Program-made: the position numbers and the translations under genes | In this document: positions 29,782-57,700 of the stretch, in pieces | How positions within the stretch are numbered: the stretch's first letter is position 1 | How the letters are laid out: each line of letters begins with the position of its first letter | Origin: Heterostelium album PN500 | Taxonomy: Eukaryota > Evosea > Eumycetozoa > Acytosteliales > Acytosteliaceae | DNA: 64,000 nt | Assembly: GCF_000004825.1 (NCBI RefSeq) | Contig: NW_008805063.1 | Span: 558,857-622,856 of the forward strand | Direction of reading: 5' to 3' | Notes under the pieces: generated by a model | Told to the model about the DNA's origin: nothing | The model's database searches: none | Seen by the model: the letters and a program-made list of their open reading frames with translations, nothing else

Positions 29782-30912
29782 TTAATTGTCTTGAAAGAAA
29801 TAACCGATGGAATCCCACATAAGTTGTGATTGAATGGCTTGTTGTGGTGAGAGCATATCAATGTTCCAAACGGAGAGTCCACGAAGATTCATTTTCTTGG
29901 CGAGCGAAACTTTGATTGTCAGTGACTCGGGATTGTCGTACCAGACTTGACGGAGTGTTTGAGTGGCTGGATCGATGTAGTTGAAGAATGGCGATGCCAA
30001 TTCCTCTGACCAGAGTTCGCCTGTGCTTTGGATGGCCGGATTGTCTAGGATGTCAAGCAAGTCCGAGTAGTTGTATTGCTCGCCGGCTGCATCTGAGCAA
30101 CTGACGTTTCTGAATGGCACGAGTGCAATGTTGCATTGCAGTGTCTCCAAGCTGTTCGAGTTGACACAGTTGTAGACGTAGCCATACCATGGCAATCCCA
30201 TGACAAGTTTGTCGGGCGAGATTCCGAGTGCTGTGAAATTGTACATTCCTTGCTCGACGCTGGTTGGTGGTGAGTTGGCGCTGGCTGTGCACAACGAGCT
30301 GAAGACCTGCGAGCGCAGATCGTAGTCCATCACGACGAGGAAGTCCGACGCCTGTGCCAGCCCGACATAGTCGTAGTAGCGACCGTCGATTCCATTTGGC
30401 GACCAGGCGACATCCACTGTCACTTGGTAGTTGGGATTGGCCGACTTGAAAGCGACGCTGGTCTGTGCCACCAGACCGGTGTAGAGTGCGGACAGTACCG
30501 ATTGCTCGGGATAGATTGGATCCTCAACATCGAAATTGATACCGTCAAAGTGCGAGTTTTGCACGAGCGCCAGCTGTTCGGCGATCCACTGTTGTTGGTA
30601 CGATTGGTTGGTGAGCTGGTCGATGGGGAAGCCCGTTCCATAGACGAGACGCACGCCATGACTGTGCGCGGTGCAGAGCAGTTGTGGATCGGGATTCGAG
30701 TAGAAAAGAGCGATCGTTGTCAAGATGCTCCAGTCGTAGGTCTGGTAGGTATTGTTGTCCGTCGAGAATCCGAGGAACTCTTGTCTTGGACCGATATTCA
30801 ATGGTTGACACAATGAAACATCGGAGCAAGGGCAATTGTTACCAGTAGCAGCAGCAACTGATATCAAATTGACAAAACATAAAAATACAACAACAAATAA
30901 GATCTTTAACAT
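29782..30912 (-). CDS. ctbs: Di-N-acetylchitobiase (GH18), lysosomal
   Basis: A single exon of 376 codons. Residues 1-22 are a signal peptide (LKILFVVVFLCFVNLISVA). The mature protein begins with a Cys cluster (CPCSDVSLCQP) as in animal chitobiase. The GH18 catalytic signature at 123-130 reads DGINFDVE, with Asn in place of the second Asp of chitinases, the same change as in mammalian chitobiase; the final Glu (130) is the proton donor. Further barrel strands are LVVMDYDLRSQ, LVMGLPWYGYVY and GLSVWNIDML. The enzyme removes the reducing-end GlcNAc from chitobiose cores of N-glycans in lysosomes. Length is close to the human enzyme (385 residues). Confidence 0.9.
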   Translation of the reverse strand: MLKILFVVVFLCFVNLISVAAATGNNCPCSDVSLCQPLNIGPRQEFLGFSTDNNTYQTYDWSILTTIALFYSNPDPQLLCTAHSHGVRLVYGTGFPIDQLTNQSYQQQWIAEQLALVQNSHFDGINFDVEDPIYPEQSVLSALYTGLVAQTSVAFKSANPNYQVTVDVAWSPNGIDGRYYDYVGLAQASDFLVVMDYDLRSQVFSSLCTASANSPPTSVEQGMYNFTALGISPDKLVMGLPWYGYVYNCVNSNSLETLQCNIALVPFRNVSCSDAAGEQYNYSDLLDILDNPAIQSTGELWSEELASPFFNYIDPATQTLRQVWYDNPESLTIKVSLAKKMNLRGLSVWNIDMLSPQQAIQSQLMWDSIGYFFQDN

Positions 30913-32131
30913 ATTAATTTTTCAGTAATTATATATTAGTAAGTAAATTAATTGGATTGACTGACAATCAATTCCCAAAACAACATGTTCAGAAGAACAA
31001 ATGTTTGCAAACAGAAATTATTAACAAATTAAAAAAAAATAAAATTCATTCAGATTTTTTTTAAATGTTTTTTTTTTTTTTTTTGAGAACCAAGATATGA
31101 TTTTGAGAGACAATATAATTGGGTTCCGATGATTAAACTCTTCAAACCCATCCTTATTTCGAAAATCAACAAATATCTTAAATGATTAAAGAGAGGATGT
31201 TGTTCAATTATTTTATTTTTTAATTTGTTTATTTTTGTGATGATGATCAGCACTATTCAATCAAAAAAAAGGTTATAACTTAAATACCAACATTATTATC
31301 ATTAAATTTTCAAGTGAAATCTTTAAAGAATTTTCATTTGAGCATTACCAACAAAGCAAGTATCAGATGGTGAGGAATGAAATAGAAATATTTAGGTTTG
31401 TAAACTTTTTAAAAACACTTTATTTATTACTTACAAGTAACGTCTTTAAATAAGAATATGATGATTAAATAGTATTTCAAGTTTAATTATTAACTCTATT
31501 TTATTATTGGAAGAGTTGTAAAGTTTATTTTTATATTCACAAACAATTTATAATTGAACACAATTTTGTGTGTGTAAAGTATAATCTATTTTAAAACTTT
31601 TTTTTTTTGAAAATAAATAAACAAAAACATAATTATGTTTTAACAATTATTTAGATAAAAATAATCAATTAAACATTTACAATATTATTTTTATTTGTTT
31701 TTATTTTTTATTTTTTTTGAAATAGTTGCAATTGCCTAATTTTTTTGTTCAACCTTGAATTCCACTGGTGGATGTAAAACCAAAAAAAATATCCAAAAAG
31801 TTTAAAAAAAAAAGGATTCAATCACGAGTGATCTGAAATTTCAGTCAAACAATCAATTCAATTAGAGGTGTTACAAATTGTTGGGCACATATCCACAACC
31901 TCTATTTAACGTTTTTATTTTTTATTTATTTTTTTCATCACAAAACAAAATATCTTTCATAACTTTGAACTTAACATTTAATTACTTTATTTAGTTAAAT
32001 ACTTACTATATTTATATTATATTAAATATCTATTAGATATTATAGTTTAGTTTATAGGTTATAAATAGATATATATATATATTTATATTTAGATTAGTTA
32101 TTTATTTATTGAAAAAAAAGAAAAACAAAAA
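30913..32131. other. Divergent intergenic region
   Basis: 1.2 kb between divergent chitobiase and beta-amylase genes; AT-rich with several homopolymers. A TA-rich stretch lies at 32060-32080, 50-70 bp ahead of the beta-amylase start. No ORF or repeat family was recognised. Confidence 0.5.
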
Positions 32132-33976
<1,845 letters not shown>

Positions 33977-38923: not shown

Positions 38924-41900
38924 ATGGCAACAGCATCACCATTACCACAATCTGCCTATTTAACTTTGTTTGAGGAAAATAACAAGCCCTCAAAGAAATT
39001 CACATTAAAATCAAATAAATTCACTATTGGAAGGTAAGTCTTTATAATTTATAAATTAATTAAAAATAAAAAAAAAGACAATAATGATATTAATTTTATT
39101 TTTGAATAAATATTAGTGGTTTGGAAAACAGTCTTAGAATTCATTTACCTGGTGTATCTACACTTCATACTGTAATCGAATTGGAAAATGGAAATGTAAT
39201 GTATATTCTTTTTTTTTTTTAATAATAAACTAAAAATGAACATATTTATTAATTTAAATTTAATATTATTTTTAGGCAATCTTATCCAATGCAAGCAAGA
39301 CCAATCCAACTTTTTTAAATGAGAAAAAAGTACAGAAACCAACTCAATTGAAAGACGGTGATATCGTTTCGATTCTTGGTAGAAAATTCCAATTCAATAC
39401 CTCGCAACTCATCAGCACTCCAAAGACACCGAAACTCTCCAAAGTTCCAATAAGTGAAAGAGTATGTTATAGATGATAACAAACCAACAACTAACAATAG
39501 TTAATTCATAGTCAGATTACTTACTTTTATTTATTCTTCTTGTTTTTATATGTTAACATAAAAATAGAAAAAGATTCCACTTCAACCACTCGATAATATT
39601 ATGGCAGATAACAATAGCAATGCTGCTTCGCCTGCTGCCACCAAGAAGCCGTTGGTCGCACCAAGCACCGTCGCAAAGATCAACGTCTCCAAAGGAACAC
39701 AATTGATAAAGAAACAACAGCCAATTAAATTGTTTGCTGAGCCAACTCCTCAGAAGCAAACAAAGCGTGCCGCCACTCCCTACAAGAGAGTTCAATTGGA
39801 AGATTGTTCATCCGATGAAGAGGATGAGCATATGGACAACAATGAAAATAATAGCAACAACAGTCAATTCAGTAGTGATGAAGATGACAACTCTGAGAAT
39901 TACAATTATGACAACAACGATGTAATGTCTACACCAGGCTCACAGTATTCCACACCGACCAGCATGTTCAATGCCTCGTCGAGTATGTCGCCACCAAACA
40001 CTCCGTACTCTGTGTACTCGAATAACTCGGCACTCTCTGCCAACTCCAAGACCACCAAGTCTGGTAGCAAGTCGACACCCGGCGTCGTTCAGTTTGACGT
40101 CGCCACACCGGCACCTTCCACAACCAAGCCAATTCGTGGCATCCTCAAGACCCCACGTCCAAAGCCATACGAAATGACACCGGAAGGTACACTCGCCATG
40201 TCCACCTTTATGAACTCGACTTCCAACGTTGACGGTACCATCCCATTCCACCTCACTCAAAGTGTTCTCCAATACCAACAACCACAACAAACACCAGCCA
40301 GACAACAAGTTACTACTGCAAAGACACCGATTTCCATCCTCAAGTCATCGATTGCCAAAGTAGATCAACAACAACAACCAAACACTACCACTCCAAACAA
40401 GAAGGGAATCAAGATTGCAGCCAACAATCACACATTGGAGTTCAAAAAGAATGAAGTAATCTTGTCCACTCCAGCCAAACGTCTCAGTACCAACAACTCT
40501 CCAATGTCCACTGATGATCTTGAAATGGAAGAAGAACCAGTTGTTGTTGCTAGTGAAGAACAAGAACAACAACAACTTGAGGAGATGGAGGAAGAACAAG
40601 AGGAAGAGACTACCACTTCAACAAAGAATAAGAAGAACAAGAAGAAGAAGAACAACAAGAAAGCTCAGCCACTTGTTATTGTTCCAAGACATACTCCAGA
40701 CGAGAAGAATCAAAACAAGCCAAATACATTCAATCGTATTGATGGATCTTTGATTTCTCCAGCTGCCACTCCAGTCGTCGCCACTAGAACTTCAGATCCA
40801 TTGGTGAAGCGTACCGTTCGTGAGCAAATCAGATCCACCGATGCTGATATTGTCACATTCGATGACTCTTTTGCCAGTGACTACAGTATCTTTACACCAG
40901 CCGCAAGTCGTCGTGCCTCCACACTGTCCAACAAGAACTCACCCATTTTCACACCACAACGCTTGTCCTTGCCCACATCCGCTGGTACCCCACTGTCCAG
41001 ACAATCCACACCAAACTCTGCTCGTAAATCTCTGTTCGAATCGATCTCATCTGCCATTTCTTCTCTCTCCAATTCTTCAACACCAAACAAAAGACAACAA
41101 GTCGAAGAAGAAGAAGAAGTCGAAGAGGAAGAAGATGTTATGATGGAAGATGAGTTGGAAGAAGAAGAAGAAGACGAATATTACTCTGCTAATGACAGTA
41201 TCTATACTGAGAATCAAGAAGAAGTAGAGGAGCAAGAAGAGTTAGAAGAGCAAGAAGAGTTGGAGGAGTTGGAAGAAGAAGAAGAAATTGAAGAGGAGGA
41301 GGAAGTTGACGGTGTGTCTTACGAAGGAGTCGAAGAAGCCGATGAAGAAGAGGAAGTCGACGAAGAGTTTGAAGATGCTCAAGAGAATAACTATGCTGAT
41401 GTAGAGTTTGACACCGATAATCATTTTGCTTCAAGTGCTTCCGATGAGCAAGATCAAGAGGAAGTAGAAGAGGAAGAAGAAGACGACGATGAGTTGTACG
41501 TAGAAGAAGCTGATGAAGAAACTGAAACCGATCAACTCGAAGGTGAACAAGTCAATGCCGAAATTTCTCAGCTTGCCGAAGAAGAGATCATTTCTGAAAT
41601 TGCTGATTTGGCTGAAGAAGCAGCAGAGTATTTGGAAGAGGAGTTGGAACTTCAAGAAGATGAGGAACTTGAATTGGCCGAAGAGGAAGCTGAGGAAGAA
41701 GAGGAAGAAGTAGAGGAAGATCTCGAAGAGAACCTTGAAACTGCTGATCCTATTGAATTCCACCAAGACGAATTGGAGTTGGCTCATGCATTGGACGCTG
41801 AGAATGCCGAGGCTGAACTGGCCGAAGACGAGTTGGAAGAAGAACTCGAAGAAACAGAGTTGGCTGAGGAAGAGGTTGACGAAGAACAAGATGCTTCGAA

Positions 41901-44334
41901 CTTGGTCGAGCAAGACGATGACGAGACCGACGAAGACCAAGAGGAGCCAGACTTTGATGCACTCGAGTATGCAGAGGACTACGAAGAAGAAGAAGAAGAA
42001 GATATAGGAGAACTCGAAGAATTCGAAGAAGCCGACCAATACCCAGAGGAAGAGGCAGACTCTGATGCGCTTGAACTTGAAGACGAGTTCAATGCCGATG
42101 AAGAGTTGGTTCAAGACGACGCTGACGAATTGGATGCCGACAATCAAGAGGACATCATGGATGGTGTTGAATACGAAGAGGAGTTGAAGGAAGATGACTC
42201 TGAAGAAGAAGAAGAGGAAGAGGAAGAGGAGGAGGAGGAGGAGAATGTTGATGATATTCAGATGGATGACGAGCATTACATTCAAGAGTTTGATGAAGTT
42301 CCATTTGAAGATGAAGTGGCGGAAGAGGAAGAAGAGGAGGAGGCAAACATTCAAAATGTTGTTCAAACCCCTGTAAAATCCTCCACTCCAGTCAAGTCTC
42401 AAACACCAGCTAAGATTCAGACACCACTCAAGACTCAAACGCCAGTCAAGTCTCAAACCCCAGCCAAGGTTGAGCAAACTCCACTCAAGACTCAAACACC
42501 AGTCAAGACTCAGACACCAGTCAAGACTCAAACACCAGCCAAGGTTGCTCAGACACCAATCAAGGTTGAGCAAACACCACTCAAGTCTCAAACACCAGCC
42601 AAGTCTCAAACACCAGCCAAGACTGCCCAAACCCCAGCCAAGGTCGAACAAACACCAATTAAGACTCAAACACCAATTAAGGTTCAAACACCAGCCAAGA
42701 CTCAGACACCAGTCAAGACTCAAACACCAGCCAAGACTCAGACACCAGTTAAAGTTGAAAGTCCAGTTGTCACTTCACAAAGTTCCACACCAATTTCCGA
42801 TCCAAAGAAGCGTAAGAGTATTTCAATGAGTGATTTGTTCACTGACTCTGCTGTCAAACCAAGAAAATCATTGGCCACAACACCCAGCACTGAAACTCCT
42901 TCTGCCATGCGTTCTTTGAGAAGAAGCTTTGTTTCTACCATTGACAGTTTCGATCCAGATTTAGTCCACTCTGTCTCATCCAGACCACAGATTCCACAAC
43001 AAGATGACTCCAATCTCGAGAAGGAATTCGAATCTGAATTGACCATCGAGGAGCAACCAGCCGAAGTCGAGCAACCAACTCCATCAAAATCAAAGAGATC
43101 AAAGCGTGCCAAGAAATCTGTAGTCGAAGAAGAACCACAATTCACTGAGGAGCATGTTGATGAACCAATGATTGAGGAGACTTCAGCAGATGTTGTTGAG
43201 GAAGAAGTACAAGAAGAGGTTGTTCCAGAGCCAACACCAAAGAAGTCCAAGAGATCCAAGACCAAGGCAAAGCGTAATCAAGAACCAGAGCCAGTCGTTG
43301 AAGAAAAACCAGAGCCAGTCGTCGAAGAGGTAGTTCCAGAGCCAACAACAAAGAAGTCGAGAAGATCAAAGAAAGAGAAAGTTGTCGAGACTCCAGTTGA
43401 AGAGGAGGAACCACAACCAGTTGTAGAGGAAGCAGTCCCAGAACCAACAACAAAGAAGTCCAGAAGATCAAAGAAGACTGTTGAGCCGGTTGTTGAAGAA
43501 GAACCCGAGCCAGTCGTCGAAGAGGTAGTTCAAGAGCCAACAACAAAGAAGTCGAGAAGATCAAAGAAGACAGTTGAACAAGTCGTCGAAGAGGAGCCTG
43601 AGCCAGTCGTCGAAGAGGTAGTTCAAGAGCCAACAACAAAGAAGTCGAGAAGATCAAAGAAAACTGTTGAACCAGTCGTCGAAGAGGAAGTAGCGAAAGT
43701 TGAGGAAGTCAAGCCAACCAAAAAGTCATCAAAGAAGAGAGCTGCCGTTGAGGAACCAGTTGTCGTCGAAGCCGAAGAAGAAGTAGTGGAGGAAGTCAAG
43801 CCAACCAAATCTTCAAGAACCAAGTCATCAAAGAAAGAACAACCGGAAGTTGTTGAGCAAGAGGAGAAACCATCCAAGAGATCAAAGTCTTCGAAATCAT
43901 CAAAGAAGGAACAACCAGTCGTTGATGAAGCTGAGCAAGAACAAGCACAAGTTGAGGAAGTTGCAGCCAAGTCTTCCAGAACCAAGTCTTCTAAATCAAA
44001 GAAAGCTGTTGTTGCTGAGCCAGTAGTTGAAGAGGTCGTTGAGGAAGTCAAGTCGACCAAGTCTTCAAAATCAAAGACATCATCAAAGTCCAAGAAGGAA
44101 CCAGTCGTCGAGGATGAAGAAATGGAACAAGAGGAAGTTCAAACCAAGCCAGCCAGTAAATCATCTTCAAGATCAAAGTCATCATCAAAGTCAAAGAAAC
44201 AACAAGAGGAAGTAGAAGAAGTAGAACAAGAGGAAGAGGAGAAATCAACAAAGAAAGGAAAGAGATCAACTACCTCTGCTCCAATCGAAGAAGAGAAACC
44301 AAAGAAGAAATCAAGAGCAAAGTATCATTACTAA
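38924..44334 (+). CDS. Ki-67-like FHA-domain protein with tandem TPxK repeats
   Basis: Exons 38924-39033, 39117-39195, 39276-39461 and 39568-44334 encode 1713 residues. An FHA phosphothreonine-binding domain occupies about residues 10-110 (KFTLKSNKFTIGSGLENSLR, VSTLHTVIE, TFLNEKK). A T/S-P-rich region follows, then some 400 residues of acidic repeats (41110-42350). Next come 21 copies of a TPxK unit (42360-42760; QTPVK, QTPAK, QTPLK), each a full CDK consensus site, and finally alternating PVVEE and KKSRRSKK modules ending in a basic tail. FHA plus a huge TP-repeat, charge-patterned region is the plan of Ki-67 and other mitotic chromosome-periphery proteins. A nuclear, cell-cycle-phosphorylated role is inferred. 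I found no clear PP1-docking RVxF motif. Confidence 0.85.
42360..42760 (+). repeat. Coding repeat of 21 TPxK units
   Basis: Tandem 15-18 nt units inside the FHA gene encoding QTPVK, QTPAK, QTPLK or QTPIK with one-residue spacers (S, T, V, E, A, I). All carry T-P-x-K. Confidence 0.9.
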
Positions 44335-45811: not shown

Positions 45812-46064
45812 TTCTATTCGTAATCAATCTGTGAAACAAACTGAGGAATGTTGTACACAATTTAATAATTAAAAAAAATCAAGAATCGTCGCTCGTTTTT
45901 TTTTTTAATTAATTTACATTCATCAATATTAATAAACAGTGCTAACCAACAGTGATTTAAGATAGATGTTAAAAAAAAAACTATTTCCTAGATATTTGAA
46001 AATTCAGCAGTTCATTTTAGAACTACAAATTAAAAAATTTAATTTTAGATCTTCATCAACAAGC

Positions 46065-46137
46065 GCCCGGTTAGCTCAGTCGGTAGAGCGCACGGCTCTT
46101 AACCGTGTGGTCGTGGGTTCGAGCCCCACATTGGGCG
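46065..46137 (+). tRNA. tRNA-Lys (anticodon CTT)
   Basis: A 73-nt cloverleaf without an intron. The acceptor pairs GCCCGGT with ATTGGGC (two G-U pairs), and the discriminator is G. The D arm is GCTC...GAGC, the anticodon stem CACGG/CCGTG with loop CTCTTAA (anticodon CTT), and the T arm GTGGG/CCCAC with TTCGAGC. A T5 run at 46143-46147 is the likely Pol III terminator. Confidence 0.96.
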
Positions 46138-46163
46138 TTAAGTTTTTAAAAATGTTAACCCTT

Positions 46164-46811: not shown

Positions 46812-47888
46812 TTACTTGTATCCTATGAACTTTCCATCTGGTTTTTGTACAACAAAGGAATTTGCTGGTTTTAAAAACTTTTCTTCGGTTATCGGAACAC
46901 CACTTGTTACGCAATATAAGGTCTTGATCGTATCCACTGGAATTGATAGAGTCTCTGCAATAGTTTTCTTATAGTTTTCAATGGTCTGTGGCTTTGGAAT
47001 CTTGAAAGTTTGATAGAGTTCTGGTTCTCTATTCGTTAAAACTTTGCAGTAGTCGGCAAATTCATCTTCACTAACTTTAATGACTTGTGGTAATTCATAT
47101 TCAGTGACAATTCCCATCTCTTTGAGGAGTGCAACAGTTGAAGGGTCATGTGAAGCCAAATCCAACATCAATCTCTTCTTTGCAATTTCCAATAGTGTCT
47201 TACTAGTTCCTTTGGCACCAGATTTGTTCGAATAGAGTGTCTTTGATCCAGTTCCCTTCAATTGATCCCACTTGGAAACTTGATACGTTTCAAATTCACC
47301 AGTTTCCAAATTCAATCTAATATTCTTGTTGATGATAATCTTTGCATTTAATGATATTGTTTCGATATGTTTTCTACCTGAACCACCATTAGTTGATACA
47401 TCGGTGATCTGTACATCATGCATTTCATATTCAATGATTGGTAGGACGCGATTTGATATCTTTCCAATGACACGAAAGATGACATGTGGAATGATTTCAT
47501 CACGCATTGCCATGTAATTAAAGTTTGGTGATCGATCACAAGTATATTTGGAACACATCAATTTACCAACACGTTTTCTTTTCTTGATTGACCCAGAAGA
47601 CACATTGTGTGAAAAGCTCATTACGTCAATCCATGGTGATACAAACTCTTTGAATCTTTTTGAAATGAGTTTTTCCATTGGATCGGGCGTTTCTTGTTGT
47701 CTTCCTCTTCCTCCATAGTTGTTGCCATGATCATAGTCATTAATATTGGCTAATTCTTCATCATCCTCTGCTGCTGGTGCAATTAATCTCATCAATGTAT
47801 CCTTTTGATTTTCAATAGTTGGAATTTGATAGTCTTTAGCATTGACATTTGTATCTATTGGGATCCATAAAACAATTGTTTCTTTCAT
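46812..47888 (-). CDS. Protein with domain resembling bacterial type VI secretion Hcp tube protein
   Basis: A single exon of 358 codons. Residues about 83-192 match the pattern of the Hcp (T6SS tube) family: WIDVMSFSHNVSSGS near the start (Hcp has IeVlsfSwG.sq.gs), MCSKYTCDRSPNFNYMAMRD in the middle (Hcp: f.k..DkaSP.L..a...G), then YEMHDVQITDVSTNGGSG and HIETISLNAKII (Hcp: y.l.da.ItsvstsGs......E.vsLnf.ki). The C-terminal ~60 residues (TIENYKKTIAETLSIPVDTI) look like a ubiquitin/doublecortin-type fold. The N-terminal 80 residues have no match I know. No signal peptide or membrane segment is present. The gene is intronless and lies between tRNA-Lys and tRNA-Gln. The family relation is by eye, and the function in an amoeba is unknown; transfer from bacteria is possible. 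Confidence 0.6.
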   Translation of the reverse strand: MKETIVLWIPIDTNVNAKDYQIPTIENQKDTLMRLIAPAAEDDEELANINDYDHGNNYGGRGRQQETPDPMEKLISKRFKEFVSPWIDVMSFSHNVSSGSIKKRKRVGKLMCSKYTCDRSPNFNYMAMRDEIIPHVIFRVIGKISNRVLPIIEYEMHDVQITDVSTNGGSGRKHIETISLNAKIIINKNIRLNLETGEFETYQVSKWDQLKGTGSKTLYSNKSGAKGTSKTLLEIAKKRLMLDLASHDPSTVALLKEMGIVTEYELPQVIKVSEDEFADYCKVLTNREPELYQTFKIPKPQTIENYKKTIAETLSIPVDTIKTLYCVTSGVPITEEKFLKPANSFVVQKPDGKFIGYK

Positions 47889-48320: not shown

Positions 48321-48392
48321 TGCTCTGTCATATAAGGGTTAGTATCCTGGACTTTGAATCCAGTCATCTGAGTTCGAATCTCAGCAGAGCAA
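48321..48392 (+). tRNA. tRNA-Gln (anticodon TTG)
   Basis: A 72-nt cloverleaf. The acceptor pairs TGCTCTG with CAGAGCA perfectly, starting with a U-A pair, and the discriminator is A. The anticodon stem is CTGGA/TCCAG with loop CTTTGAA (anticodon TTG); the T arm is CTGAG/CTCAG with TTCGAAT. A TTTT run at 48401-48404 can terminate Pol III. In dictyostelids with the standard nuclear code this tRNA reads CAA, the dominant Gln codon in the poly-Q genes here. Confidence 0.95.
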
Positions 48393-48772
48393 CTTAAATA
48401 TTTTAAAATAGCCCATAATGCGGCCATAATGCGGAATTTTTGTTTAAATTCCTTTTTTACTACCTCCATCTCTCTTTTGTTGATCTGTACTATCTTAGTG
48501 GCTGGTACTATCGTGGGAATATTCCATCTTACAGTTTTTTTGAATGATCAGATACAATTTATTGTATTTTTAAAAATAACTGATGACAACCCAATTTTAT
48601 ATCTTTAAGAAGTGTCATCAGAAAACTGAAAAAAAAAAAACAAAATAGTAAACTAGTTGTACTATACTAAATCTATACTGTTATCTTTATTATATTTATA
48701 AACTTTCAAACTGTAGTGTTGTATTTTGTTCATTACCAATTGATAAGTAATTGATTCCACAACAAATGATTA
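48393..48772. other. Intergenic with ATGCGG repeat and small inverted repeat
   Basis: After the tandem CCATAATGCGG element the DNA is AT-rich. A 9-bp inverted repeat (CTGATGACA...TGTCATCAG) lies around 48580-48620. It converges on the 3' end of the spatacsin gene. No ORF is seen. Confidence 0.5.
48413..48434 (+). promoter_or_regulatory. tRNA 3'-flank element, tandem CCATAATGCGG x2
   Basis: The undecamer CCATAATGCGG occurs twice without spacer (48413-48423, 48424-48434). The first ATGCG starts 26 nt after tRNA-Gln, close to the 28th position of ATGCG behind the other two tRNA genes. Confidence 0.5.
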
Positions 48773-51700
48773 TTATTTCTTTGGAGTCATGCCCTGACTT
48801 GATTTAAAGTATCCGATACCTAAAGATGAACTGACAGTTTGTGCTACAATATCTTCAAATCCTGATTCTTTTGCAAGATCATAGCGTAGATGCTTATCAT
48901 TTAAAAAGTTGTTTAAAAGATACTTAACATGTTGAACTTTAACTTGTTTGGTTGTATCACCCTTAAACTATAGTTATGTTTAATATATATTAATAAAAGT
49001 TTAAACCTATTCATATTTATAAGGTTACATACTCTTTTAATCAAGTCATGGAATAGATTTTGTGGAACGGAAAAGTTGGCAATATAATCTTGAAGGTATG
49101 TGAAATTTCCAAGACAAAGAACCTGTTGGAATAATACACTATAGTTGATAATTTAATTAGTCAGTTAGTTGGTTACTAGATATATCTGTAAAATTTAAAA
49201 ATTGATCTATTACTTTATCCAGTCGGAATAAATATTCAGATTATAAGCATTTGCAATGATGAGTGACTCTCTAAATGTTTGACGAGATATCATTGTTTGT
49301 CTTGCTTCCGATTGCTTTAGATTGATGAGTTTGATATCGGGTAGTTTAATTTGTAGAGCAACGAGTGTACCCATAGCCACACAATACTGAGAGGTGCGAT
49401 TCGATCTCTCCTTTGCATAGTTGTCGGCGGCATTCAAGAATGACTCCATCACTATCAGTAGATCCTTGATGTAATTTCCAGGTTGTTTTGGATCTTTGAC
49501 AATGGATTCCAACTTTTGTTTGGCACGGTGTTCGTGCAGTGCTGCGATTTCACGATACATATTGAAACGATAGAACAACATCTCAAGTTTATCTTGATAG
49601 AGTGGCTGTTTCTTCAAGAGGTAGCTGTGAAGTGCAAGTTTCAAACCGTTGTGATCTTCGTGTTGATGAATCTTCTTTCGAAGCAGCAGTTCAAAGCTAT
49701 CGTGTTGTAAGAGAATATCGAGAATTCCTTGTAGTTCATTGTAGCATTGCATTCCAGTGATGAGACGAACAAGCAGTTTGAATTGTCCGGCATCTGCATA
49801 ATAGTTGATACGTGACTTTACAATGTTTTGAACGAGGATGCTTCCGTCGACACTACAAGCTACAACAAAACAAAAGTGTGCACGAACAAATAGCTCTACC
49901 TCTGCTTCCATTCCCGATGGCGACAATGAGTTTGCTTTGGCAAACACTGGTGAACTAGTGACGGCTGCCTTGTCGAAATCAATTCCGGTTGCTTCCAACA
50001 GTCTCATACCAAAAGTGAATGGATCACGACCAAGTCTAATGTATTCGTTGAATTCCTCCGATGTCCAAGCCGGATCGATTCCCGCTGAAGAGGAGCTTCC
50101 TCCACTGTCGTGCAGCGAACTGCCACTGCTGTTTGGATAGGATTTCTGAGGTGTCGAAGGAGCACTACGATTACCATTGTAGTAGTCACCAGAGATATTG
50201 GAATTCGAAATAGATTTCGATAGTGATGATTTCACAGGGAATTGAACTTTGACAGCCTTTGCAAAGGTATCGGCAAGTTGGATGTTGATCTTGGCAAGAT
50301 CGAGATGATTGGTCGAAAGGTATGATTTGATCAAACGGAAACACTCTTTGCCTTGAAGTAGGAGAAGGTTGACTATGTCATAGTGATTTTCCAACTGTAG
50401 GTCAGAGTAGTTCATCGATAGTTTCTGACTGACGTTGTACTTGGTGAGAATGGACTTGGCTGCCTCTTTGGCAAGGTGACAACACGACGATAGCGCTTCG
50501 AGAGCCAACGAAATTGGATTGTTATTGGTTCCATTGGATGTCAACGAAGAGCCAATCAACGATGTACTGCTGTTCATCTGTTGTTGTTCATTTTGTTGCT
50601 TGATCCATTTCAATCCGTGATAGCTGTTTTCAAGCATAGACAAGATTGTCGGTGAGAATGAATGTGGACTTGGACTAATGGTTTTGTTGGCAACGGAAAT
50701 CATTGTCAAGACAATCTCATAGTCTAAACTCTTGAATGAGAATTGCTTTGAGATTTGTTCGGCTTGTGCATAGTTGCCAGAGTTGAGAAGTTTCGCAATG
50801 ACATTGTCCAATCCCTTGGGATCGATTGACATTGGATCCAATCTTGGTGTTGGTTTCGACGGTGACAAATAGGCAGAGGGTGTAGACATTGTCATTGGAG
50901 TCATCGATGACATTGGTATTGCACCAACACCAAATCCACTGCCACCACTCGATGGAGGTGAAGTTGAATAACGATTACTGTTGTTGTTATTATTGGTATT
51001 CTGTTGTTTCTTTATGTGTTCACGGAATGGATTGGGATCAAAGTTGTCTGGGGAAGATGAGAGTGAAGTCGATGGCGATTGAAGTGGCGATGTAAAGGAG
51101 GAATGAGGCATGTGGGATGGACGATACGGTGAGGTGGAGGGTGACACCGATGTCGATGAGGAATCACGATCGTCTTGTTGTTCGCTCTCCAAAGACAATC
51201 CTACAGAGATGAGCAGTATCTGTTTCTTGAGGTCTTCAACCTGCTGTTGTTGTACATTGTTGGATGATGCTCGTTTTTCGAACCAATCTGCAGTGGTCTG
51301 AAGAAGGAACACCTTCTCGTTGGAGGGTGCCAACTTTTGTGAGATCTGGTGGAAGAAGTCACCCGCAACTTCAGGACGACATTGGTGAATGACGAAATAG
51401 TGTTGACACTTCTTCCAGAGGTTGATACGCTCTTGCTCCAACTCCCAAAGGCATCCATGCTTGTAGTGAGCAACGAGTGACTCGACTTCGGCGAGAGTAA
51501 TGATGTCCTTATCGAGGTGATTTTCATTGGAGTAGGTACGCGCCTCGGCAAACAGATTCTTTTCCAAGAGACGATCGATAATAACCTTTGGATCCAAACG
51601 GATATTCTTATCTTCGAGCATGGTACGCTTCATCAAGTGAAGAGTGGAGTAGAGTGTTGAGAAGTTATTCGATAGGTTGGAACGATGCAAGATTCCCAAG

Positions 51701-54700
51701 AAGTGTTCTCTCTCGTAGGAACTGTAGAGATCCAATAGACCTTCACATACGTCAATAGCCAATCGTTTGATTGTTGATAATTGGTCTTGTTGAAGACGAC
51801 CTAGTTCCTCAATGAAAAGAGCCAAGCTGTTTTCAGAGTCTTCGAAACGATATTGATGGAACTGACTGATGAATCTGAGGAATGTCATCAACGGACTTTG
51901 AGGCATGAATATCTTTAGACCTTGAAGAAGAATGAATGTCTTTCTGTTTTGAACGATATAGTGAATCGATAGATGTAGATCGTCCAGTGTCCATTTAGTT
52001 TGTAGTGGAATTTGGTCAGTGTCAGAGTCATCGTCTTCGTCAACCTGTTGTTGGAGTTGTTGCTGTTGTTGTTTGGTTTGAGAAACATTGGATAAATGAG
52101 TAGCCAACGATGGAATAGAAACAGATAGCCATGTAACTAAACAAACGGTTGTATTGATCGATGCAAATGATGATTGTTTGTTTTGTTCAGCTGCAGCAAT
52201 ACACGCCAAAACAGCGAGCAATGCTCTTTCGTGTGTGACTGCATAGTAGAGTAAATAGTTTGCTGGATCGGTTGTACGGTATGATGATAGTAGATAGTCC
52301 ATGATATCATGTGACATCTTTGTTGGTTCTATCGGGTTGAATTCAATCGAGAGTGACAACAACTCAGAGTCGGTAGTGGGTGGTGGAGTGTCATGGATGC
52401 GCAGACGTTGAGTGGATATCTGCTCGAGAACAAGAGTAAGATGATTGCGAATTCCTTGGTTGGAGAACATCTTGATGATTTTCGCTATTTGTGACATTGG
52501 GAATTGGTGTTGTTGTGATTCGTAGAGGAATGCCAACCAGTTGTCTTGTCGCGCCAGATACTCTAGACGACGAGTAACCAGAGATACCGAGTGAACCTGA
52601 CAGAATCGTGAGAGAATAGCCCAGTTTGAGCTGGATTCACTTAGTTGTTCATCAAGTGGTAAGGTAGCTTCGAAAGCACTGATAATCTTAGAGATGGGTG
52701 TGCCGGCTGCCACTTGTCTGTGTGACACTTCACTTTGTTTCAGCGGGAGAGTCGAAGGAGCTGGATATATCGAGTGGAAAACATTGATTAAATCGATAAG
52801 ATCGAATGGATTCGCTTCGAATTCCTCTTTGTTTGATTGTTGGTGTTCTATGATGCGTTTGGCAACCAAATAGTCGACTTTGACCATGGTCGCCAGGAAT
52901 TTCAAATTCATCAACTCCAACAAGGTTATCGCTGAACAAACAGAGGTTTCATCACTAACCCTGTTCAAAACGAATGAACGAATCAACCAACCAATGAGAC
53001 TGATATGTTCGTTTGACAGTTGATCAAAAGATTGTTTGGTGTTGCGACGGTGTCTATCAACAAGGAACTGATAGGCAAGCATCGGTCTACCTTTTTCAAG
53101 ATAGTAAAACACATCGATTCTATCGATGTATGCCTCTTTGAATTGTTGAGTTGCAATGTCGGCAACACGCACCGAGAGTGGGTCGGCTCCAACCGCGCCA
53201 AACAACGAGGAGAGCGAGAATGTTGAGTTGGCTTCAATGATCTCAGAGAGAGTGATGTCCGACTTGGAACTTATGATATCTCTTGGTTTGGACATCGATC
53301 GTTTGTTTGGTTTGAAGCTGGATTGTTGCTTGTGGAGGATGGTGGAGAGTGTTGAGTGCAAAGTTGGGTTGGCTTTGAACGCTTGGAGCAGTGGGGTGGT
53401 ATCCAACTTGGTGCCGTGGTCAGTCACCTCGGTGAGCAGCGAAGCAATAGAGGTAGGAGCATAGATCATTGCCGACAATGCAAGCAGTGGTCTGTTGGCA
53501 GAGATCGCACTGTTCAAAGTCGAGAGGAAACCATCGATTCCGCTTGATTCCAATGGTGGATTCGAGTGGAGAGTCATTGCCATGTTGACAATGTTTGCAC
53601 GAAGCAAATCTGCAGGCGAACGCGTACGAAGCAAGAAGAGTAGCTGTGACTCTGAGCTAAGTGAATCTAGTTGGTCAACTCCGATATGTTGAGCACGTAC
53701 ACTCACACAATTGGCAAGTTGATATGATTGGATGTAACTTGACAACAACATCATGTTTTTGTTTTCAATACAAAAGTTGATAAAGAATCTGTGGAATGGA
53801 GAGGTTTCTCCAATGGGAAGGATCATGCTCAGTGGATAGGAATGTGGTTGGACAACACCATTGTTAATCACTGGGAACAGTTGGAATGTATTGGATAGAC
53901 GTTTGAGTAGAATTATTTCCTTGGTGGAACGACGGTATCTACTGTCGATATAGAACAACGGTGCAGTCTCCAAATCCAACAAGAATATTCTATGTCTTGC
54001 CAGTTGATTCAAAAAGATATCTTTTATGAATGGCAGAGCGATTGACATTGCTTGGTAGATGGATTTATGTAATTCTAAAACCAAAGGTTCAGGTTGAGGT
54101 TGTTGGTATTGTTGAGCGTTGGATGATGCCGGTGAAAAGTCGGTCAATACCAACGATCTAAAGTATTGAATCTCAGTGGTTGTCAACTCATTATCAACCC
54201 ATGTAATAACATCTTGTGAACGAGAGTGAGAAACGGCAAAGAAGAGACGAGCGATACGATCACGCTTCTCCATCTCAAAGTTTCTATCGATCAAGATACG
54301 CTCTTTGGTGAGCGACGACCATTTCGATGCCCAGTTGAGAGTGAAATGACTGTAACCTATGTCGTTGTTATCGACCGATTGGAAAGGAGTATCATTCTTG
54401 ATTGGCGGATACAGAGTGATTCTTCTTCCAGTGTCTTGTCTGAGTTGTGCCTGTAGGAAATTATTGTTTGGCATCTGTTGGTAGATGTTTCCACTGCTGC
54501 CACCAATGTTGTGAGTGACAATGTGGAATCCATAGTTGTTCTCAGTGTCGGGCAGGATGTCGTCCACTTCTTGACAGAGTGGTTTGAGATCATCGTCGAT
54601 TGTTTGGCTCTCAAAGGAAGCGTGTCTTGGCAGACCGATGGTTGGCGACTGTGACTGTTGCAACAAGGGTGGTGGACGCGACTCGTGGAATGGACGGTAT

Positions 54701-57700
54701 CTAAAAGAAAGACGTGAGAACTCGCGGTAGTAACTTGGATTGGGATAGAGTGTCTCGATTTGCTTGGCAAACGACATTAGTGCGAGGAATTCAGTGGAGA
54801 AGATCGACCTGTCGGTTGCCAGTGGATGGTTGGCAAGCGCATCCAGTAGCAGCGATCGAATGGAACGACGCGAAGTCGATAAGGCAATCTGGCGAAGATG
54901 CGGAACAATAGGCTGTCCCATGTGCGCAAGATATTCGAGTGCTGGTTCGAGCTGAGCTTGGCTTATCGCTTGGAACACAAGACACGCTGCAATCTGTTGG
55001 AAGTGAGCCAGTGTGAATGTTCCGCTCGATGGAATGATCTTTGGAAGTTGGCTGTCTTGCGAGCGAGTCATTGGATTGCTCGAGGTGGCGACAACACTTC
55101 CACCGCCGTCCATCTCTAGGAACTGTGAGCTCGAGAGTAGCAGACCATTGCGTTCACGTTTCCAATTGATAAAAGCTATGGCCGAGGAAACAGTGTTGTT
55201 AGAAAGCGACTCTTTAACAAGCTCCAACTCTTCCATACGCTCCCAACGCTCACACAATCCACCGAACCACGGTCCCATATCAATCTCATCGGATGACAAC
55301 AACACGGCCGATCCGCTATTCATCTGATGGTGTTGCATTTGCACCGATGATCCTGGAATACTCATTGGATTGCGATTGGCATAGCTAACATTGGATTTCG
55401 CTTTGGAAGAAGGTTGCTGTTGTTTCTGGAACATTCTAAATGCTTCGAGAATAGTAGTGAAATTCAAAAGATCTTGAATTGGCGAGCTTATATCGTGCGA
55501 AGTGGAATTGGAGTCACAAACGCCAGATGGTGAGACACTGCTACTATTGTTGTTGCTGTTGTTGTTGTTGTTGTCTGTTCTGGACGGCGATAGAATTACA
55601 TTGAGTGAAGACAGCGTCAAGTTTGATTGGTTGAGTGGAGTGGTAAGTGTTTCCGTCCAGTTGAAATTGATACAGTTGTCACCGAGATGCGGGATGGCTG
55701 CGTGAACCAGTGAAGCACGATCCTTTATAATCAAACCAATAAAGTTCATTCCAATGTGTAGTAGCTCTGAGGTGAACGATTCATTGTGAACGTTGGCATT
55801 CGAAGCATTGGCAGTGTACTCCAAGATCGTGTTGACGAGCAGACGACTACCGATCAACTGTTGATCCAAATCCAGTGATTTCAAAGCCGGCTCAACGACG
55901 TCCAACTGGCGATACTTGAGACCGAGTTGCAGCGCGTGAATCTTTAGGTCACGTTTGTTCCAATTGTTGATCTCACACAGGTGATTGGCACTGGCACTTC
56001 CCTCAAACATAATCATGTTGTTTAGAATCTGCTGTTGATTCTGGTCGATCAGGACAACGTGCAGACCAACACTACTGATGTAAAAGAACGACTGGTCCGC
56101 TAGCATTACAACTTGTAATCGCTCAGAGTAGGCGTGGAACGACTGCTTTGTGAATGGATCGGATCTACTCACAAAGTGAAGCTCACAGCTAAACGAACCA
56201 GTGACACTGTCATGGTAGTTTCTTTGATATACAATTACAAGAGGAGTTATCCATACACTCGAATCAACCAACTCCAATCCACCGTTATTCACTGACAAAC
56301 TATTACTATTCTTTAAGTTTAGATTATAACAATTGATATCATCTGGTTGTTGATCTTTTGCATTATTACTAACTAACTGAGTTTCTGATAATAAATTAAC
56401 TTCTGAATGATTTTGTTGATTATGATGATGATCATTGTTATTAAATGATGATATATCTTGATTTGAAATCGATCTACTTAATAACGATGCATTATTAAAT
56501 GAACTCTCTCTTGATATTTGTCTTTTAGATTGTTGTTGTTGTTGTTGCTGTTGATAACTAGTACTACTGCTATTATTACTATCATTGTTATTATTGTTGT
56601 TTAGGTTATTGATGTTACTTATTTTATAACCGTTGGAAGGGTAGTTAATTGGATGATTAGGTAACCACCCAACCATGTTATCATACTCTTTGATGGAATC
56701 AAGTGGCATACACTTGCTATCTTCACTCTCGTACCAATGCAACAGGAACAAGTCGTCTTCGAGACAGTCGTCATACTCGTCGGAATCCAAGTCCGATTCA
56801 GCACCATCGTTCTCAGTGTGCTCCGTATCGGTATCGTGTTGACTATGATCACCTTTAAGTGACATCGAAGAGAGATCGTTGATACTGTTATGATTACTTC
56901 CACCACCACCACCACCACCAGTAGCATTCATATCAGTGGTATTGTATTTACTGAAACTACCATGACTTCCATGACTACTACCACCAAACTTTGTACTACC
57001 ACTACTACCATTCAAATCGATATGATTGGCATTCGATGTAGATGACGATAGAGCAGTTGCGGCGGTGTTACTAGTTGTCTGGTCGGCAAACAACAGATCG
57101 GTGGCGGTACTACCACTACTATCTCTATTGAATTGACTGTCGAAGCAAACCAACTCGTTCGTGTGATAGGCAGGTTGTTCGACACTCTGGAAGTAGTGAT
57201 CCAAGTTGATCAAATAGATACGTTCCTTCTCATCGAGAACCGACAGTAACTCTTTATCCGATGACACAGAGATATCTTTTATCATAGCAATAGATTTATC
57301 TTTTACGAAATTATCTAAACCAATAATAATAATAATAATAACAACATTTTTAGTTAGTTTACATAACAACATCATTATCAATTGATTAGTTATATAACAT
57401 TACCATTATTATTATTATTATAGTTATTATTGTTATCATTTAAATTGTATTTCTTTAAATAGTTTATGATATCTAATGAACCACGTTGTTTACCGTTCAA
57501 ACTCCATATATCTAAACGTTGAGAATACAATGAATTCCTATTGAATACGAATAACCATTTATCAACTATTTTGAATATTTGTCTATTATTATTGTCATTT
57601 CTATCTTCTTTTCCTTCTGTTTCTTCTTCTTCTTCTTCCTCCTCTTCCTCTTCTTCTTCTTCTTCATCATCAGAATCTACAGTTGACTTTAAACTAAAGT

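Follow-up and report, generated by a model that had tools for sequence, protein, structure and literature searches.

The genome of the amoeba Heterostelium album PN500 contains a family of seven genes which are almost certainly domesticated bacterial Hcp genes. Hcp is the ring-forming tube protein of the bacterial type VI secretion system (T6SS), and the family suggests that part of this injection machine was acquired long ago and adapted by a eukaryotic cell to another purpose. An old acquisition is the best reading of the homology, the single clade of the amoeba proteins, the predicted introns, the purifying selection and the absence of three T6SS families. Our preferred explanation is that a bacterial Hcp3-type gene may have been taken up and, through domestication, have become a scaffold or adaptor that forms rings; for this statement as a whole we estimate a probability of about 0.5. 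One of the seven genes (L001, the window copy) lies in the window, which is the whole stretch of 64,000 nt of DNA that was analyzed.

The window copy is a single uninterrupted frame from ATG to stop, in agreement with the initial annotation, which had described an intronless gene of 358 codons. Its parts and its relatives in the same genome are listed in Table 1. The protein matched the family T6SS_HCP (PF05638) with 32.8 bits (cut-off 23.5; E = 9.4e-8), and this was the sole Pfam family reported at E ≤ 10. A phmmer search of the PDB retrieved 9qpe_A, an Hcp family T6SS protein, with E = 1.9e-7 (next match 0.037). Nothing significant was retrieved from NCBIfam or PHROGs, where the best E values were 0.028 and 0.18, respectively. 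The motifs on which the initial annotation had based the Hcp assignment are present in the order quoted, and the assignment was retained; the end point given to the domain was not, as the domain reaches about residue 208. A profile built from the Hcp domains of L005, L004, L002 and L003 matched the Hcp3 structure 9qpe_A with E = 2.6e-24 and 88.9 bits, and the next Hcp structure after 9qpe reached only 22.3 bits. In a PF05638 scan of the seven family members, five were clearly above the cut-off, L006 was equal to it (23.5 bits) and L008 was below (18.9 bits), with L005, L006 and L008 entered as second exon only. A predicted model of residues 84-212 (pLDDT 78.1) showed the beta-barrel fold of Hcp and tail-tube proteins and matched Hcp structures in Foldseek and VIA-align. 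The agreement in fold and the similarity in sequence are not independent of each other, because the alignment used for the model contained bacterial Hcps, including three of the IMG/VR loci L040-L049 described below. The full-length model was built from two sequences and was of no use (pLDDT 38.8), leaving the N-terminal part without a usable structure.

Table 1. Positions of the window copy, its segments, the neighboring tRNA genes and the other family members; positions without a contig name refer to the window
Feature	Position	Strand	Evidence or remark
Protein-coding gene L001 (window copy, Hcp domain, intronless, 358 aa)	46812..47888	-	ORF, PF05638 match, paralogues in own genome
N-terminal segment, residues 1-36	47781..47888	-	Family motif in alignment; pN/pS 0.19 vs L004
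Acidic low-complexity linker, residues 37-68, fast-evolving	47685..47780	-	pN/pS 0.50 vs L004
Hcp domain, residues 86-208	47265..47633	-	Pfam 86-181; PDB 9qpe_A 87-208; model of 84-212 with Foldseek and VIA-align
Connector, residues 209-268	47085..47264	-	Higher identity than any other segment in L001-L004
C-terminal domain, residues 282-358, weakly ubiquitin-like (probable beta-grasp)	46815..47045	-	Sub-cut-off Pfam matches across the family
tRNA-Lys(ctt), neighbor	46064..46138	+	tRNA scan of window
tRNA-Gln(ttg), neighbor	48321..48393	+	tRNA scan of window
L004 and L002, adjacent	C2:262981-265870		75-77% identity to window protein (range includes L003)
L003	C2:278614-279690		75-77% identity to window protein (range includes L002 and L004)
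L005	C37		45% identity to window protein
L006	C24		37% identity to window protein
L008	C10		27% identity to window protein
L007, fragment with connector and C-terminal sequence only, internal stop	G000:C25:467679-467951		

As noted before, the gene lies between tRNA-Lys and tRNA-Gln, and it is on the opposite strand to both. A significance of this bracket was rejected, since no tRNA was found at the seven scanned loci of the other copies and the L007 fragment; the bracket is probably incidental. The neighbors in the window are eukaryotic and include spatacsin, FYVE-arrestin, B-box/Kelch and calponin-homology genes. Spatacsin is a single ORF of 2721 codons (49210-57375) near tRNA-Gln. Two further observations concern other parts of the window: a frame of 1577 codons at 39601-44334 has a short match to Cementoin (transglutaminase-binding repeat; E = 2.2e-10), possibly a repeat artefact, and GH18 and GH14 reading frames lie near each other at 29782-33726.

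When the window protein was compared to its own genome (32.9 Mb, 39 contigs), seven family genes on four contigs and one decayed fragment were found. The search was repeated with L005 and L008 as queries and returned the identical seven genes, without the L007 fragment, which is a sign of gene loss within the family. PF05638 itself matched at six places in this genome, all above the cut-off, and among 14 control genomes only E. coli was matched. The window is part of contig C2 (2.0 Mb), on which L002, L003 and L004 form a three-gene group; kinase-like and WD40-like frames around this group were recognized by eye only. Just ahead of L003, a near-identical frame (MSNLLLDVD...) occurs twice (L038 and L039, G000:C2:274724-278189), and L003 may, therefore, have been moved as part of a larger duplicated segment.

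Single introns with GT...AG borders were predicted for L005 (77 bases), L006 (83 bases) and L008 (61 bases) and none for L001-L004. Removal of the introns resulted in proteins of 369, 365 and 316 aa, respectively, which align nearly end to end with the window protein. The predicted introns of L005 and L008 are both in phase 0 and precede WIDI, the motif at the start of the Hcp domain, by 8 and 11 codons, respectively. This similarity suggests, without amounting to proof, that both derive from a common ancestral intron.

Nei-Gojobori counts gave dN/dS values of 0.17-0.20 for the window gene compared to L002-L004 (dS 0.72-0.84). For L004 the values were 0.32 against L002 and 0.29 against L003. 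The youngest pair is that of L002 and L003, with a dS of 0.09; its dN/dS of 0.49 indicates weaker constraint. In comparisons with L005, dS was 1.65-3.42, with synonymous sites near or past saturation. Selection on the family is purifying overall, and together with the predicted introns this characterizes the copies as host genes. The suggestion that the gene is more than a recent copy is borne out by the divergence among the seven paralogues, by the introns predicted for three of them and by dS values which range from 0.09 to near saturation. Constraint differs along the protein. The connector is the most conserved part, with 57 of 60 residues of the window protein identical to each of L002, L003 and L004 (pN/pS 0.05 vs L004), and the acidic linker is the least conserved (16 of 31 residues identical between the window gene and L002). 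The N-terminal segment has the motif xPIDxxxxxxYxIPTIENQKDxL in most copies of the alignment.

Other parts of a secretion system were searched for in all six frames of the unspliced genome with three T6SS families, VipB (sheath), Phage_GPD (VgrG) and T6SS_VasE (TssK). None of them gave a match at E ≤ 0.01. The positive control E. coli matched all three, and Synechococcus also matched Phage_GPD. On the basis of these three negative searches we rejected a T6SS in the amoeba, and the amoeba Hcp is not considered as part of a secretion system.

Among bacterial Hcps, the Hcp3 type was the closest. The amoeba profile was applied to 19 bacterial Hcps and scored 87.8 bits for L026, 61.0 bits for a Phycisphaerales Hcp (L015) and at most 35.4 bits for the rest. 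L026 is a plasmid-borne Hcp3 of Pseudomonas (WP_003089495.1) within a tssB-tssC-hcp-tssE-tssF-tssG cluster. With L005 as query, the plasmid collection yielded two Hcps at E ≤ 0.01, from Pseudomonas (44% identity) and Salmonella (41%); the window protein retrieved only the Pseudomonas Hcp (27.6% identity, E = 2e-3). In Planctomycetota, 9 of 392 genomes matched at E ≤ 1e-5. For one locus of this search series (L017, genome G354), the Hcp-like stretch lies in a long frame together with an apparent amidohydrolase, recognized by eye, which is either a fusion or a frame artefact. A scan of genome contigs gave 31 candidate stretches, of which one was confirmed as a relative, the Phycisphaerales Hcp, so that a closer bacterial Hcp may have been overlooked. 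Judged from the neighboring frames, this Hcp lies within a putative T6SS locus. In a tree of 26 rows, comprising the seven amoeba proteins and 19 bacterial Hcps from plasmids and Planctomycetota only, a branch with support of 100/100 separated the seven amoeba rows from all others. Two of 21 fetched bacterial loci (L030 and L035) were left out of the tree, as no frame matched the amoeba profile. Because of the midpoint root, the long branch of L008 and the small bacterial sample, the donor cannot be named, and the Hcp3 type is the best match by sequence rather than a proven donor.

A connector and a C-terminal domain were added to the Hcp domain in all seven copies. The C-terminus had been called ubiquitin/doublecortin-like, and this description holds only as a faint resemblance. 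When the seven C-termini were scanned singly, GRHL1_C was matched by five (best E = 0.0015, 18.8 bits, cut-off 27), ubiquitin by two (best E 0.0099), and PAS_6, DCX2_DCDC1 and DCX by one each (E 0.08-0.22). In a separate scan ubiquitin reached 14.6 bits (cut-off 25.4), and the GRHL1_C and ubiquitin scores are thus both below their cut-offs. The connector and C-terminus of the window protein alone gave no Pfam match at E ≤ 10. A C-terminal profile matched polyubiquitin in the PDB through sums of single-domain scores, each of them insignificant. In this genome GRHL1_C matched L005 only, below the cut-off, and since it had no match in the 14 control genomes, there was no positive control for this family. 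Matches of the C-terminal part to Sdh5 (two of five proteins), DUF5343 (one of five) and PAS_6 (one of seven) were taken as chance. From the matches across the family, the C-terminal part is probably a beta-grasp domain. The connector and C-terminus of L005 retrieved only the seven family genes from this genome at E ≤ 10, and we rejected the idea that the module is a separate host family. A bacterial origin of the extension was likewise rejected, as a search of the plasmid collection yielded no convincing relative of the connector or C-terminus (best E = 0.06).

We propose the following sequence of events. One bacterial Hcp gene, most like Hcp3 of the H3-T6SS, would have been acquired by an ancestor of the amoeba and, after domestication, would have given rise to the present family of seven. 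The Hcp barrel would still form rings in the cytosol, as homohexamers or as heterohexamers among the paralogues, and the conserved connector and the beta-grasp-like C-terminal domain would attach the ring to a host partner. Such a ring could be a multivalent scaffold, or it could be a chaperone with protein cargo in its lumen. As a mechanism, this ring scaffold or chaperone is a tentative choice, to which we give slightly less than even odds.

The behavior of Hcp3 and the mapping of its contact residues are the reasons why we favor a retained ring that may hold host cargo or present the C-terminal domains to a partner. The diameter measured for Hcp3 rings is about 85 Å. According to PMC13323088, Hcp3 of P. 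aeruginosa forms hexamers in a concentration-dependent manner, binds effector cargo first in a 1:1 ratio and contacts it at its inner surface through S29, S31, E56, T60, G121 and K123. We mapped these sites on our alignment through L026, which equals the 9qpe sequence over the stretch aligned in the PDB match (compared by eye). All six residues are kept in L002, L003, L004 and L005, and the loop GGxGGKPVE, which reaches the lumen in Hcp3, is kept in four amoeba copies. The window copy keeps four of the six, with K109 and S113 in place of E and T, and is one of the less typical family members, with a core identity to the Hcp3 row of 26% vs 43-47% for L002-L005. L006 keeps two of the residues and L008 one. 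These changes of lumen residues in the window copy, L006 and L008 argue against a retained ring. The 18 bacterial Hcps besides the Hcp3 row keep one to four; among rows of similar identity to Hcp3, L032 (44%) keeps four and L033 (41%) keeps two. Retention of the six residues is expected under common descent as well as under function and, therefore, does not decide between the readings.

The Hcp domain may instead have become a monomeric beta-barrel adaptor that has lost the ring and links the N- and C-terminal parts, which we regard as unlikely, though less so than any other alternative. The first strand, beta1, is not recognizable, and its loss could impair ring packing: a crude profile of 13 columns, made from 15 bacterial N-terminal stretches for the strand before the W-I motif, performed no better than shuffled sequences on the first 60 residues of all seven proteins (627-1964 of 2000 shuffles scored as high). 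The idea that the N-terminal segment contains a displaced first Hcp strand found no support in this comparison. Insertions and extensions on both sides of the domain, the strong divergence of L006 and L008, and a connector outside the Hcp domain as the most conserved part also fit a monomer. On the other hand, most of the domain, including the GGxGGKPVE loop, is kept in four copies, and assembly of Hcp3 is driven by concentration, as described in PMC13323088.

The complete set of six cargo-contact residues is kept by four amoeba copies, as opposed to one to four residues in the 18 other sampled bacterial Hcps, and a role in defense by trapping of effectors is, therefore, possible. The Hcp3-like proteins would bind anti-eukaryotic T6SS effectors injected into the amoeba through the hot-spot residues of the lumen that Hcp3 also uses, and the ubiquitin-like domain would pass them to degradation or another host pathway. 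The 1:1 binding of cargo, the use of several contact residues for different effectors and the description of the H3-T6SS as mainly anti-eukaryotic (PMC13323088) are in line with this role, and the three-gene group on C2 would fit an arms race. The residues may, however, be kept merely through descent from an Hcp3-type gene, given the core identity of L002-L005; two of the sites are changed in the window copy and more in L006 and L008, and selection is purifying overall. We consider effector trapping improbable. That the tube protein of an anti-eukaryotic weapon was turned into an intracellular antidote, catching effectors in the same lumen pocket and handing them on through the ubiquitin-like domain, would from the sequences be a shade less probable still.

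It is very improbable that the amoeba proteins act as decoy subunits which join incoming bacterial Hcp and block the tube or cargo release. Hcp proteins can make heterohexamers, as stated in PMC13323088 and indicated by the title of PDB entry 9vne, but injected Hcp is probably pre-assembled.

Instead of a T6SS, the source could have been a tail-tube protein, either ancestral or inherited from a phage or giant virus; in the structure comparison the fold is common to Hcp, eCIS and phage tubes. Of 50,697 phage records, one matched L005: OR851090.1 of Salmonella phage S.Kent 1-2-1, an unannotated record of 2.9 kb with an Hcp-like stretch of 41.5% identity (E = 9e-8). This short record may be a bacterial fragment. 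Two scans of IMG/VR with the amoeba queries revealed no viral relative. With bacterial queries, two scans were empty, and two others gave four and six loci with Hcp, respectively (together L040-L049); four loci of the later scan share their contigs with the four of the earlier one. These records classed as viral, like OR851090.1, carry bacterial-type Hcp and possibly represent chromosomal flanks of prophages. The specificity for Hcp3 in the structure matches (88.9 vs 22.3 bits) also speaks against a viral or tail-tube origin, which we regard as highly improbable. Bacterial contamination or a dead recent insertion, which the otherwise bacterial nature of the domain and E. coli as the only PF05638-positive control genome might suggest, was rejected because of the position on a 2.0-Mb contig, the eukaryotic neighbors, seven copies on four contigs, three of them with predicted introns, and dN/dS of 0.17-0.20.

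The domain as such is known. To judge from the open-licence literature searched, a eukaryotic gene family that combines it with these extensions is undescribed. No description of a eukaryotic Hcp gene was present in titles and abstract openings among the matches listed, and the terms Hcp and type VI are absent from the main text of the dictyostelid genome paper (PMC4931340). A conserved and expanded eukaryotic Hcp family would be a clear case of eukaryotic domestication of a part of a contractile injection system. It raises the questions whether rings form, what occupies the lumen and whether predatory amoebae reuse part of a weapon of their prey for cell biology or defense.

The closest known protein is Hcp3 of the P. 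aeruginosa H3-T6SS, under the name used in PMC13323088 (PDB 9qpe; L026), which resembles L002-L005 in the Hcp domain, with the core identity and the six contact residues given above. Hcp3 is a bacterial single-domain protein of 165 aa encoded in a T6SS operon, whereas the amoeba proteins carry extensions, are 316-369 aa long and are encoded by eukaryotic genes in a genome without the tested T6SS families. PDB 3he1, an older entry also titled Hcp3, is less close (13% identity) and was absent among the profile matches listed. Extended bacterial Hcps with a C-terminal toxin (Hcp-ET), as presented in PMC13323088, likewise consist of Hcp followed by a C-terminal extension. In contrast to these, the amoeba extension matched no toxin family, and its connector and C-terminus had no convincing plasmid relative. 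The beta-grasp domains of GRHL1_C, ubiquitin and doublecortin show weak profile similarity to the amoeba C-terminus; the amoeba scores are below the GRHL1_C and ubiquitin cut-offs, and the module of L005 matched nowhere else in the genome (E ≤ 10). Other dictyostelid genes of bacterial origin are chlA, dgcA and iptA, which, as reported in the main text of PMC4931340, were likewise transferred laterally from bacteria and then put to use by the host. These genes encode enzymes or sensors, whereas the amoeba Hcp derives from a structural component that forms the rings of an injection machine.
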